The notes under the pieces were generated by a model. It had not been told where the DNA came from. It did not search any database and saw only the letters and a list, made by a program, of their open reading frames with translations. A program made the translations under genes and the position numbers. From Bacillus marasmi (GTDB lineage Bacteria > Bacillota > Bacilli > Bacillales > Cytobacillaceae), in assembly GCF_902168435.1 (NCBI RefSeq), contig NZ_LR656171.1, forward strand, positions 165,790 through 229,789: a DNA stretch of 64,000 bases, read 5' to 3'. Positions 42,353-48,882 of the stretch are shown piece by piece. Every line of letters starts with the position of its first letter. The stretch's first letter is position 1.

Positions 42353-43045
42353 ATGACTATGAAACTATTTTTTAACCGTATATTGCGTTTAATTTTTGGA
42401 CTATTTTTATACTCACTTGGTATCGTCGTCACCATGAATGCTCATATAGGATTTGCACCATGGGATGTCTTTCATGTTGGATTGGCCAAAACAATCGGGA
42501 TGAGTATTGGTACCGTCTCAATTTTTGCAGGCGTAGCAATTGGAATTATCACAGTATTATTAGGTGAGAAACTCGGACTCGGTACGATTCTAAATATGGT
42601 GTTAATCGGATTGTTTCTAGATGTATTGATTGGATTTCATCTAATTCCCGTTGCGAGCAATTATATGTTAGGTATCTTTATGATGATTGTTGGATTGTTT
42701 ATTATCGCTTTGGCTTCCTACTATTATATAGGGTCAGGATTCGGTGCAGGTCCAAGAGATAGTTTGATGGTGGCACTCACTAGAAAAACGGGCTTACCTG
42801 TTGGTGTCTGTCGGGGAACGATTGAGCTGTTGGCAGTCTTGGCCGGATGGAGGCTTGGGGGTATGGTTGGATTCGGAACCATTATTTCTGCGTTTGCAAT
42901 AGGATTTTGCGTTCAAACAACCTTTAAGTTGCTCAAGTTTGACCCAACAAAAGTTAAACACGAAACATTAGACCGAACATTTACATTCCTTTTCCATAGC
43001 AAAAAAGAATTAAATAAAACGACTGATAAATTTGGTAGTATGTAA
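42353..43045 (+). CDS. YczE/YyaS/YitT family membrane protein
   Basis: 230 residues with five hydrophobic segments and the family signature FGLFLYSLGIVVTMNAHIGFAPWDVFHVGL near the N-terminus and GSGFGAGPRDSLMVALTRKTG in the middle. B. subtilis YczE is required for surfactin production by an unknown mechanism, and other members are uncharacterised. The ribosome binding site is weak. The ATG at 42359 is an alternative start. The gene is followed by the repeat array. Confidence 0.8.
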   Translation: MTMKLFFNRILRLIFGLFLYSLGIVVTMNAHIGFAPWDVFHVGLAKTIGMSIGTVSIFAGVAIGIITVLLGEKLGLGTILNMVLIGLFLDVLIGFHLIPVASNYMLGIFMMIVGLFIIALASYYYIGSGFGAGPRDSLMVALTRKTGLPVGVCRGTIELLAVLAGWRLGGMVGFGTIISAFAIGFCVQTTFKLLKFDPTKVKHETLDRTFTFLFHSKKELNKTTDKFGSM

Positions 43046-43110: not shown

Positions 43111-44191
43111 CGGACATCTGGTGCGTTATTTACACAAATAATACTGTTTTGCTAGAGCTAACGGACACCAGGTACGTTATTTGACCCTCTATGGGCATTT
43201 TTTTGTGATTTTTACTTAAATAAGGTTATCTGTGTCCGCTTAAATCCAACAACACGCCAATCTATCAAAATAAGGTCATCTGTGTCCGCTTAAATCCAAC
43301 AACACGCCATTCCTATCAAAATAGGGTCATCTGTGTCCGCCAAAAAAGCCAGCGGACATCTGGTGCCTTATTTCCACAAATAATGCTGTTTTGCTAATGC
43401 TAACGGACATATGGTGCGTTATTTGACCCTCAATGGTCTAATTTCTGTGATTTTCACTTGAATAAGGTCACCTGTGTCCGCTTAAATCCAACAACACGCC
43501 AATCTATCAAAATAAGGTCATCTATGTCCGGTTAATATGTTAGCGGACATCAGGTACGTTATTTCCACAAATAATGCTGTTTTGTTAGAGCTAACGGACA
43601 TCAGGTACGTTATTTCCACAAATAATGCTGTTTTGCTAGAGCTAACGGACACCAGGTACGTTATTTGACCCTCAATGGGCATTTTTCTGTGATTTTCACA
43701 TGAATAAGGTCCTCTGTGTCCGCTTAAATCCTACAACACGGCAATTTTATCAAAATAAGGTCATCTATGTCCGGTTAATATGTTAGCGGACAGCAGGTAC
43801 GTTATTTCCACAAAAAACGCCGTTTTGCTAGAGCTAACGGACACCAGGTACGTTATTTGACCATCAATATGCATTTTTTTGTGATTTTCACATGAATATG
43901 GTCTTCTGTGTCCGCTTAAATCCAACAACACGGCAATTTTATCAAAATAAGGTCATCTATGTCCGGTAAAAAAATTAGCGGACATCAGGTACGTTATTTC
44001 CACAAATAATGCTGTTTTGCTAGAGCTAACGGACACCAGGTACGTTATTTGACCCTCAATGGGCATTTTTCTGTGATTTTCACATGAATAAGGTCCTCTG
44101 TGTCCGCTTAAATCCAAAAACACGCCATTTCTATCAAAATAAGGGCATCTATGTCCGCCAAAAAAGCCAGCGGACATCCGTTTCGTTATTT
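43111..44191. repeat. CGGACA-type repeat array, ~5.5 copies of a 192-bp F-F-R-R unit
   Basis: I count 12 forward and 11 reverse motifs of the form CGGACA-N9-TTATTT. Forward: starts at 43111, 43162, 43353, 43404, 43544, 43595, 43646, 43787, 43838, 43979, 44030, 44171. Reverse: 43218, 43268, 43318, 43460, 43510, 43702, 43753, 43894, 43945, 44086, 44137. Pairs alternate F-F-R-R with a 192-base period (43595, 43787, 43979, 44171). The linkers between motifs are also conserved. The array fills the space between yczE and the convergent GH1 gene. Confidence 0.92.
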
Positions 44192-44207
44192 CCACCCAAA
44201 AATACTG

Positions 44208-45746
<1,539 letters not shown>

Positions 45747-46219: not shown

Positions 46220-46795
46220 TTATGGATCCCTCATCATACCAGAATCACTCGGTACCCAATTAGCAGGGACTCCTTGCCCAGTTCTTCTACCATACTGAAC
46301 CCCTTGGATAATTCTTACAATCTCATAAATATTTCGACCAACTTCCGGAGGATTTACAAATCTGGTAACAATCGTTCCTTCTGGGTCGATAATGATTGTT
46401 GCGCGGAATGTAGCTCCAGTTTTTTCATTTAAAACTCTGTATGCTTTACTTATTTTTTGTGTCCGATCACTTAATAAAGGAAACGTCACCTTAGCTGCAG
46501 CAGAAGAAACTTCGGTAAAAACTTTATGGGAATTTACACTATCGGTACTTATGGCAAGTACGTCTGCATTTAATGCCCTAAATTGATGATAAATAGCAGC
46601 GACCGCTGCTAACTCTGTCTGTCAAACAAAAGTAAAATCACTAGGATAAAAAAATAAAATGACCCATTTTCCAATAAAGCTTTGTAAGCGAATTTCCTTC
46701 ATTTTCTTTTCAACATTGTCGTAAGCTTCTGCCACAAATAAGGGTGCTTTATCAGTTGTCTGTGCACAAAATGGTTGTTCGTAGTCCTCATACAT
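46220..46795 (-). CDS. Peroxiredoxin with in-frame TGA at the peroxidatic cysteine (candidate selenoprotein)
   Basis: Read from the ATG at 46795 (AGGAGG 10 bases upstream) the minus strand encodes 191 residues of a Prx1/AhpC-type peroxiredoxin, interrupted only by TGA at codon 58 (46622-46624). Upstream: [11 protein letters not shown] and [16 protein letters not shown]. Downstream: [48 protein letters not shown] and [12 protein letters not shown]. The TGA sits exactly where PxxxTxxC has its reactive cysteine. A hairpin with a GGTC loop lies 17 bases beyond it. The C-terminal resolving cysteine (usually VCPANW) is valine. Either selenocysteine is inserted, giving a peroxidase for H2O2 or organic peroxides, or the gene is a pseudogene with a single nonsense codon. 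Confidence 0.75.
46594..46611 (-). promoter_or_regulatory. SECIS-like stem-loop downstream of the TGA codon
   Basis: On the minus strand TAGCAGC, loop GGTC and GCTGCTA form a perfect 7-bp stem. Seventeen bases separate the TGA from the loop. In E. coli fdhF the same GGUC apical loop stands 18 bases after the UGA. The sequence also encodes conserved peroxiredoxin residues (LAAVAAI). Confidence 0.65.
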
Positions 46796-47055
46796 ATGAC
46801 AATGTCCTCCTCATCAAAGAATACTCTTTTATCTATATGTATAAGACAACTAATTAGTGAATCATAATTTTTTAAAACGACATCACCGTTCGTATATATT
46901 TGCTCAAAAGATGCCACATAACACACTTTAACCACATTGCTTTTGTATAGTGCGAAAAGTCATTGAATTATTAAAATTATATTACTATTATGAAGGTGAT
47001 ACCATATTTAACATTTAATTCCACCACCTATCCTTTAGTGAGGAAGGAGAGAGTT

Positions 47056-48882
47056 ATGAAATACACTTGGCGAATCATCCTAGCTGGAATTGTCTTTTTT
47101 GTAAATGTGTTTAACTATCAATTTGGCGATTTTAACCCTTCAATGATTTTTTCTCATTTATTAAACACAGCAATCGGTTGGATGATCGGCCTGCAAATTG
47201 ATAAATATCTCATTTCCAAAAAGGAGCTTGGTACAACCAAAACTGTATTATTGGACTATTCTTTTGCCATGGACTCTGCGGCTGAAGCAATTGGAATTAT
47301 GAACGAAGCTGGGCAGTTTATCTTCGTAAACGAAGCGTATGCCAATTTGTACGGTTATAGTAAAGATGAATTTTTAACACTTAATTGGACTAAATGTTTC
47401 CCCCAAAAGATTTCCGAGCATATGAATAAACATGTAATAATCGAATTAATGAAGTATTCGATTTGGAAAGGAGAGCTAATCGGCGTTCGGAAAGATGGAA
47501 CCACCTTTCCAATCGAAATCTCCTTATCCCATATTAAAGAATCAAAGAATACGATATGCTTCGTTAGAGACATTACTGAGCAAAAGAATTATGAAGAGCA
47601 TATTAAATATATAGCTGAACACAATGATCTAACGGACTTACCAAACCGACGGCGATTACTTGCAGATTTAGCACTTTGTCAGCAAATCGAAGCAGACACT
47701 GCTCTACTTTTCCTAGATTTAGATCATTTTAAATTAATAAACGATACTTTAGGCCATGACTTTGGTGATGAATTATTGAAAAATGTTGCAAACAGACTTC
47801 TTTCCTTTGAAAACGATTATATTCATGCCTACCATCATGGTGGTGATGAATTTATTATGATTGTTGTAGGAAAGGATGTTGATTTTGTAAAAAATCTTGC
47901 AGGTACTATCATTCTAGAAGCTAAAAAACCTTATTACATTAAGGGTAAGGAACTCTATGTTACTGCAAGTATTGGAATCAGTCGTTATCCTGAAAACACC
48001 ACACATATCCACGACCTTATAAAAACAGCCGACACTGCTATGTACCATGCTAAATTAGTTGGAAAAGACACATTCAAATTTTTTACAAAAAAGCTTGAAA
48101 TGCAACAAAGTCGGAAAGCATTGATCGATACAGAGTTAAGAAAAGTTTTGAAGAATAAAGAACTTTTCATCGTCTATCAACCAAAATTTGATTTAACTAA
48201 TGGAGATATCGTAGGATTCGAGGCTCTCCTTCGTTGGATTCATCCGGAGCTCGGCATCATTTCACCAAAGGAATTTATCCCGATTGCAGAAGAAACGGGC
48301 CTAATTACAAATTTCGGTAAGTGGGTCATTCATGAAGTGTTTAATCAATTAAAAATTTGGAAAGAGCAAGGGTTCCCATTAGTCCCTGTATCCGTAAATG
48401 TTTCTCAGAGACAATTTCGCGATAAAGAATTAATTAAAGTTATTGCTTCAAGCTTGAAGTCATACAATATTGATGCAAAGTACTTTGAAATAGAAATTAC
48501 TGAAAGTGTAGTGGAAGATTCGGAGTTAATGCTACCCACTCTGCGTTCTTTAAAAGAATTGGGAATTAACATTTCGATTGATGACTTTGGAACGGGTTAT
48601 TCCTCCCTAAATGTTCTAAAGGATTTACCCATTGATACTCTTAAAATTGATCAATCCTTCATTCGTGACTTGTTAATTGATCCAAAAGATTATCAGCTTG
48701 TAAAAACGATTATCGAAATAGGTTGTAATCTTGGATTACAGGTTGTCGCAGAAGGAATTGAAACAAAAGAGCAATTAAATCATCTATTAAAATTGAAAGC
48801 AGCAATCGGTCAAGGGTTTTATTTTAGCAAACCTAAAACTGCAAAAGAAATAGAGGAAAACTATTTAAAAGTGCTAGCCTAA
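47056..48882 (+). CDS. PAS-GGDEF-EAL cyclic-di-GMP turnover protein
   Basis: About 608 residues from the ATG at 47056 (AAGGAGAG upstream). Two N-terminal hydrophobic segments (residues 3-50), a PAS domain (~70-180: SAAEAIGIMNEAGQFIFVNEAYANLYGY), a GGDEF domain (~190-345: LFLDLDHFKLINDTLGHDFGD, HHGGDEFIM) and an EAL domain (~365-600: FEALLRW, EITESV, SIDDFGTGYSSL, DQSFIRDL). Both active-site signatures are intact, so it could make and degrade c-di-GMP. The PAS and membrane segments suggest input from a redox or small-molecule cue. It is divergent from the TGA-containing peroxiredoxin. Confidence 0.92.
   Translation: MKYTWRIILAGIVFFVNVFNYQFGDFNPSMIFSHLLNTAIGWMIGLQIDKYLISKKELGTTKTVLLDYSFAMDSAAEAIGIMNEAGQFIFVNEAYANLYGYSKDEFLTLNWTKCFPQKISEHMNKHVIIELMKYSIWKGELIGVRKDGTTFPIEISLSHIKESKNTICFVRDITEQKNYEEHIKYIAEHNDLTDLPNRRRLLADLALCQQIEADTALLFLDLDHFKLINDTLGHDFGDELLKNVANRLLSFENDYIHAYHHGGDEFIMIVVGKDVDFVKNLAGTIILEAKKPYYIKGKELYVTASIGISRYPENTTHIHDLIKTADTAMYHAKLVGKDTFKFFTKKLEMQQSRKALIDTELRKVLKNKELFIVYQPKFDLTNGDIVGFEALLRWIHPELGIISPKEFIPIAEETGLITNFGKWVIHEVFNQLKIWKEQGFPLVPVSVNVSQRQFRDKELIKVIASSLKSYNIDAKYFEIEITESVVEDSELMLPTLRSLKELGINISIDDFGTGYSSLNVLKDLPIDTLKIDQSFIRDLLIDPKDYQLVKTIIEIGCNLGLQVVAEGIETKEQLNHLLKLKAAIGQGFYFSKPKTAKEIEENYLKVLA

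Follow-up and report, generated by a model that had tools for sequence, protein, structure and literature searches.

The window, the whole stretch of DNA that was analysed, comprises 64,000 nucleotides of Bacillus marasmi. On its minus strand lies a frame for an AhpC-type peroxiredoxin, running from an ATG at position 46795 to a TAA that ends at 46220. The frame has 191 codons and a single break, TGA at codon 58 (46624-46622), which falls at the peroxidatic position. No further stop was found on translation. The features of the locus are as follows.

46220..46795, minus strand: predicted selenocysteine (Sec)-containing AhpC-type peroxiredoxin gene, with UGA58 read as Sec (from translation, Pfam AhpC-TSA and relatives)
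46622..46624, minus strand: in-frame TGA (codon 58), in place of the peroxidatic Cys (from translation, alignment and relatives)
46594..46611, minus strand: SECIS-type hairpin UAGCAGC-GGUC-GCUGCUA, with the apical loop at 46604-46601 (from the fold, covariation and low third-position variation)
46806..46812, minus strand: ribosome-binding site GAGGAGG, 10 bases 5' of the ATG (from sequence)

A first-pass annotation of this DNA had described a 191-codon ATG frame, with a ribosome-binding site and TGA58 as the only break. Translation and the GAGGAGG motif bear this out; that annotation had not named the strand. The Pfam domain AhpC-TSA (PF00578) spans the TGA, covering residues 15-143 (E 1.2e-35; 122.6 bits against a gathering cut-off of 26). 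In the window protein, the PxxxTxxC motif reads P51-S-D-F-T55-F-V-U58, and U58 aligns with the Cys of Cys homologues. Column 58 is invariant in an alignment of 32 proteins, where the TGA is shown as C. The earlier placement of the TGA, at the reactive Cys of the motif, is thus confirmed. It had also been expected that annotation would truncate the product to about 90 residues. A GTG-started fragment of 89 amino acids is indeed present, at 46489-46220. Conversely, a relative from Cytobacillus spongiae, which has the TGA, appears in NZ_CP089998.1 as a single peroxiredoxin CDS of 597 bases. Hence, read-through of this codon is already part of at least one public annotation.

A scan of genome contigs returned 178 relatives, and the best 80 of these were retained. 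Codon 58 is TGA in 74 of the best 80, and Cys in the other six, which close the list with identities of 47% or less. Among these relatives are Niallia, Peribacillus, Sutcliffiella, Neobacillus, Rossellomorea, Mesobacillus, Cytobacillus, Fictibacillus, Salipaludibacillus and Bacillus sp. SG-1. Beyond the Bacillales, they comprise Pelotomaculum, Clostridium sp. OS1-26 and a Desulfobacterales MAG. Pooling with loci from further searches gave 93 loci, 87 with TGA and six with Cys. Note that the pool includes repeats of the same genome; merging identical proteins reduced the 87 to 79 distinct Sec proteins. A survey of 193 family genomes found the TGA form in 96. All listed matches better than E 1e-50 have TGA, and the next one listed (E 1.3e-33) is without a stop. 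Hence, no close Cys version of the orthologue is seen in the family. The first-pass annotation had proposed checking relatives for TGT or TGC at codon 58, and close relatives have TGA instead. As a separate observation, a record titled Pseudomonas sp. ISL-84 contains a Cytobacillus-like Sec peroxiredoxin, and is possibly a mislabelled Bacillaceae genome.

Recurrence of the identical TGA, in these relatives and in half or so of the family genomes, argues against a nonsense mutation of a Cys codon, whether in a pseudogene or through sequencing error. So does the absence of any other codon among the listed matches better than E 1e-50. Substitution rates point the same way. Compared with a relative of 83% identity (L020), and with codons 58-68 left out, dN/dS values for the parts before and after the TGA are 0.084/0.51 and 0.086/0.61, a ratio of about 0.14 for the latter. 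Compared with a relative of the same genus (L142), the values are 0.124/0.47 before and 0.131/1.29 after. As first proposed, the frame remains coding and conserved 3' of the TGA, where dN/dS is about as low as upstream, and by this measure purifying selection acts on the downstream part. Conservation of the codon, in 74 of the best 80 of 178 relatives, together with low dN/dS on both sides, excludes a TGA that arose by chance.

Two departures from most relatives could be taken as decay. The first, Gln59, is the only residue of the window protein to differ at positions that are at least 93% conserved; Pro follows Sec in 75 of the 78 other aligned proteins. The first-pass annotation had asked whether C-Q-T-E is the ancestral form at this point; in the alignment it is not the usual one. 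The same Gln occurs in L142, and Glu takes its place in five genomes of another genus (L135-L138 and L141). The second departure is a shorter C-terminus. The window protein stops six residues short of most relatives, while L142 is shorter still and has a different C-terminus. Within this genus, the tail thus seems able to vary. In a FastTree tree, the window branch ranks 23rd of 79 by length. Extra stops, in six family matches, had suggested decay, but the second stop was the C-terminal end of the protein in 6/6 cases. Judged on its sequence, the window copy is without sign of decay. Given the conservation, the selection and a conserved hairpin described next, we reject a pseudogene or sequencing error, which we regard as extremely improbable.

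The hairpin, a feature absent from the first-pass annotation, is a stretch of 18 bases that starts 10 nt after the UGA. In an excerpt of PMC13188914 (Fig. 2 legend), SECIS elements are described by an apical loop of 3-9 nt and an upper stem of 4-16 bp. The same excerpt asks for G within the first two positions of the loop, a UGA-to-loop distance of 16-37 nt, and a minimum free energy of -7.5 kcal/mol or lower. On each of these excerpted measures, the window hairpin lies within the range: the loop, GGUC, is 4 nt long and has G first, the stem is 7 bp, the UGA-to-loop spacing is 17 nt, and the 50-nt segment after the UGA folds at -11.2 kcal/mol. Taken alone, the hairpin is unexceptional (z -1.5; 14/200 shuffles reach an equally good fold).

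Comparison across relatives is more telling. Identical 40-nt segments were merged, from 87 to 68, and PrxU was added to give 69 distinct segments. In these, 97.1% of cells are paired. Double-changed cells number 29, compared with 6.1 +/- 1.9 in shuffles, and the covariation score is 0.282, compared with 0.163; for each measure, 0/500 shuffles were as high. Two of five pair measures are weak, with 16/500 and 42/500 shuffles as high. Slid controls score below the true register, even if pairing remains at 89.2% of cells when the register is moved by -3. The loop-closing pair is G-C in 59 segments, A-U in eight and C-G in two, around GU in all. Counted over the 87 hairpins, the loop GU is found in 87/87, with closing pairs GC (78), AU (7) and CG (2). 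The pair of columns 18-27 is A-U in 49 of the 69 segments, G-C in 15 and G-U in five. These two pairs join third codon positions (Ala64/Val65 and Ala63/Ala66, respectively), so the protein is unchanged when they change. A 5-bp core is incomplete in three of 87 hairpins (L090, L091 and L092), all outside the Bacillales. Variation at silent sites is also low. Within the hairpin, the five fourfold-degenerate sites have a mean third-position entropy of 0.70 bits, compared with 1.75 bits for 50 others. All five fall below the other 50 (p 1.3e-4, for sequences that are not independent). The hairpin clearly exemplifies an RNA signal, within coding sequence, that restricts codon choice.

We then consider the decoding machinery. 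The B. marasmi genome is in 46 contigs and is listed as 100% complete and 3.26% contaminated. It contains a tRNA-Sec, at C13:371512-371604, scoring 62.2 bits (cut-off 47) and with anticodon TCA according to ARAGORN. Genes for selA (562.3 bits), selB (361.5 bits) and selD (392.5 bits) are each above their own cut-off. The search for selA, selB, selD and tRNA-Sec, proposed with the first-pass annotation, has thus recovered the whole set.

Other in-frame TGA codons, in candidate selenoprotein genes, occur in the same genome and add to the case for Sec decoding. The selD gene carries its own (KAGUGCK). A formate dehydrogenase alpha gene (L127, contig C35; NRTUHAPS) scores above cut-off, and a formate-dehydrogenase-like gene (L131, contig C37; ARIUHSST) scores below. 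A second redoxin, P0003 (L015 1447-1980, contig C43), has TGA at its active site (FTPGUIKE), and a hairpin 3' of this codon folds at -8.9 kcal/mol, with 32/200 shuffles folding as well. A lipoprotein-like redoxin, P0004 (L018 1444-1938, minus strand, contig C27), has TGA in the context NTUDYCKS; an NCBIfam scan gave weak matches, under cut-off, to TUGYCR and SelL-related families.

Among the 193 family genomes, selA is present in 172. All 96 genomes with the TGA form have selA, 76 genomes have selA without the TGA form, and the TGA form occurs in 0/21 selA-less genomes. The association has a Fisher p of 2.8e-7, a value that ignores kinship; a single genus supplies 13 of the 21 genomes without selA. 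A tRNA-Sec above cut-off is likewise found in 172/193 genomes, including 94 of the 96 with the TGA form. The remaining two, G078 and G161, are 66% and 85% complete. In G179 and G183, which are 81% and 80% complete, tRNA-Sec is present and selA was not found. Confinement of the TGA form to selA genomes weighs against UGA58 being read without Sec, as Trp or Cys through near-cognate read-through, or in an alternative genetic code. The SECIS-type hairpin, and the location of the codon at the catalytic Cys position, count against it too. As for an alternative code, table 11 yields long open frames throughout the window. We give a reading of this kind almost no credence.

Our data suggest instead that the gene almost certainly encodes a functional Sec peroxiredoxin, of the AhpC/Prx1 type, in which UGA58 is decoded as Sec. 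The first-pass annotation had reached the same reading of UGA, which gains support from the sel machinery, the TGA in relatives and the covarying hairpin. tRNA-Sec and SelB would carry out the decoding, with the mRNA hairpin 17 nt downstream as guide.

How might such an enzyme complete its cycle? In the window protein, GVPANW has Val where the resolving Cys would stand, and Cys10 is the sole other Cys. Translation agrees with the first-pass annotation on both points. The C-terminal resolving Cys is missing in 79/79 Sec proteins, with Val (66), Ile (8), Ala (3), Thr (1) or Leu (1) in its place, and is retained in all eight AhpC-type Cys forms sampled (L013, L014 and L094-L099). Hence, Sec and a missing resolving Cys coincide in our sample. 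Note that this comparison left out other redoxin types, namely L015, which has TGA, together with L016 and the secondary hits in L098 and L099, which have Cys; for these four rows the alignment stops short of the resolving-Cys site. It had been supposed that the window enzyme would need an unusual resolving route. The C-terminal Cys is indeed absent, but this is not peculiar to the strain, since absence is the rule in the Sec group, in 79/79, and extends to PrxU. A single origin of the Sec form would fit a tree built from 79 Sec rows, PrxU among them, and eight Cys rows (87 in total), on which one change of label suffices, but support is low (59/25; 58% of bootstraps) and PrxU sits on a long branch.

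The rest of the active site is largely kept. Thr55 is present in 78/79 Sec proteins, with Ser in one, and Thr60, Arg131 and Arg154 are each present in 79/79. The motif Pro, Pro51 in the window protein, is found in just 28/79 Sec proteins; elsewhere the residue is Ser (21), Ala (17), Gly (10), Thr (2) or Met (1). The AhpC-type Cys forms examined keep this Pro, and its loss in 51/79 Sec proteins is strange for a peroxiredoxin.

In the mechanism we propose, the Sec58 selenolate would attack H2O2 or an organic peroxide, yielding a selenenic acid. This intermediate would then be reduced by an external thiol, either thioredoxin or bacillithiol with its redoxins, so that the enzyme could be called a '1-Sec' peroxiredoxin. 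We infer external reduction because the C-terminal resolving Cys is missing, and consider this route reasonably probable. The genome has bshC, and bacillithiol is hence also a candidate reductant. For the second half of the mechanism only, there is a different possibility: Cys10, or Cys5, could resolve the selenenic acid, within or between subunits, before thioredoxin acts. Such a role would fit the frequency of these residues, with Cys10 in 66/79 Sec proteins, Cys at the Cys5 position in 44/79, both in 39/79 and at least one in 71/79. Neither is present in 8/79, however, and 7/79 have no other Cys anywhere in the homologous region. Hence, the Sec group as a whole cannot depend on resolution by an N-terminal Cys. 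To our knowledge, no resolving route through such N-terminal Cys residues is known among peroxiredoxins, and we think it fairly unlikely here. With reduction by an external thiol as the preferred route, Cys10, accompanied by Cys5 in many relatives, may assist in some lineages and be dispensable in others.

The closest known system is PrxU of Peptoclostridium (Eubacterium) acidaminophilum (WP_084481301.1, NF040737). PrxU also has TGA at the peroxidatic position (FTFV-U-ATE) and, like the window protein, is without Cys at the C-terminal resolving site (EVAPSGW). It shares the kind of hairpin, CAGC-AGUU-GCUG, at an offset from the UGA identical to that in the window. Identity between the two proteins is 38.7%, over 92% of the query, and the annotated N-terminus of PrxU differs. 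Going by the title of a 2001 report by Sohling, PrxU is said to come from a strict anaerobe. NCBIfam describes PrxU as thioredoxin-dependent. Its model, NF040737, is the best-scoring NCBIfam match to the window protein, at 163.6 bits, which is under the curated cut-off of 270; L020 scores 164.1 bits and PrxU itself 408. On these scores, and by sequence, the window gene belongs inside the Sec peroxiredoxins and outside the NCBIfam PrxU equivalog as drawn. A bolder proposal is a Bacillaceae-centred Sec peroxiredoxin group, outside that equivalog, in which Cys was exchanged for Sec with loss of the resolving Cys, the motif Pro became looser, an N-terminal Cys resolves, and coupling may be to bacillithiol. 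As a whole we find this proposal doubtful.

Typical 2-Cys AhpC peroxiredoxins (TIGR03137), including two in this genome (L013 and L014), have the family and the active-site motif in common with the window protein. They differ in having an active-site Cys, and a resolving Cys in CPANW-type motifs, neither of which is found in the Sec group. Sec-containing glutathione peroxidases are not known to have an internal resolving Cys. These belong to another family but, according to passages of PMC8533274, are likewise Sec peroxidases that rely on an external thiol for reduction.

Sec peroxiredoxins (TxxU) are an established family, as excerpts of PMC9312934, PMC13188914, PMC1794560, PMC5029168 and PMC1088965 indicate. 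In PMC5029168, the excerpt puts Sec-Prx genes at 91, from 78 organisms; some of these may belong to this Bacillaceae group. Table 2 of PMC1794560, in the part seen, gives only three selenoproteins for Firmicutes/Bacillales. The excerpted text of PMC11076775, on selenium-tolerant soil bacteria, gives ordinary peroxiredoxin genes as selenium-related, and the terms 'UGA' and 'TGA' are absent from it; the excerpt of PMC12013277 has none of the terms sought. Among the matches listed in our literature search, which covered titles and abstracts, none dealt with this Bacillaceae Sec-Prx group.

Members of this Bacillaceae family are mostly aerobic or facultative. About half of the sampled family genomes (96/193) carry the gene, so a Sec peroxidase appears not to be limited to strict anaerobes. 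The genome has its own AhpC-type Cys peroxiredoxins (L013 and L014), available for comparison with the Sec form. In these cultivable spore-formers, the benefit of selenium in a peroxidase, when a Cys enzyme exists, is testable.

Lastly, we considered the surroundings of the gene. Neighbouring open reading frames were compared at 76 loci. No neighbour is widely shared, and genuine neighbours of the window gene appear in none of the 14 largest clusters listed. Frames inside, or antisense to, the peroxiredoxin gene itself make up the top two (22 and 19 loci), and the next ones occur in 13/76. An operon or partner gene was rejected, as neighbours are not widely shared across the 76 loci. For a PerR box upstream, the best match in the window has three mismatches and shuffled controls are equally good; hence, we make no claim of regulation. 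Adjoining the peroxiredoxin gene, and divergent from it, is a PAS-GGDEF-EAL protein (46990-48882), which is in none of the 14 largest neighbour clusters listed for the 76 loci. A tandem repeat array lies at 43111-44195; its periods, near 50, 191 and 242 bases, overlap, and TRF scores reach 1006. It is flanked by an open reading frame at 42353-43045, with no Pfam match, and by a glycosyl hydrolase family 1 gene at 44208-45740.
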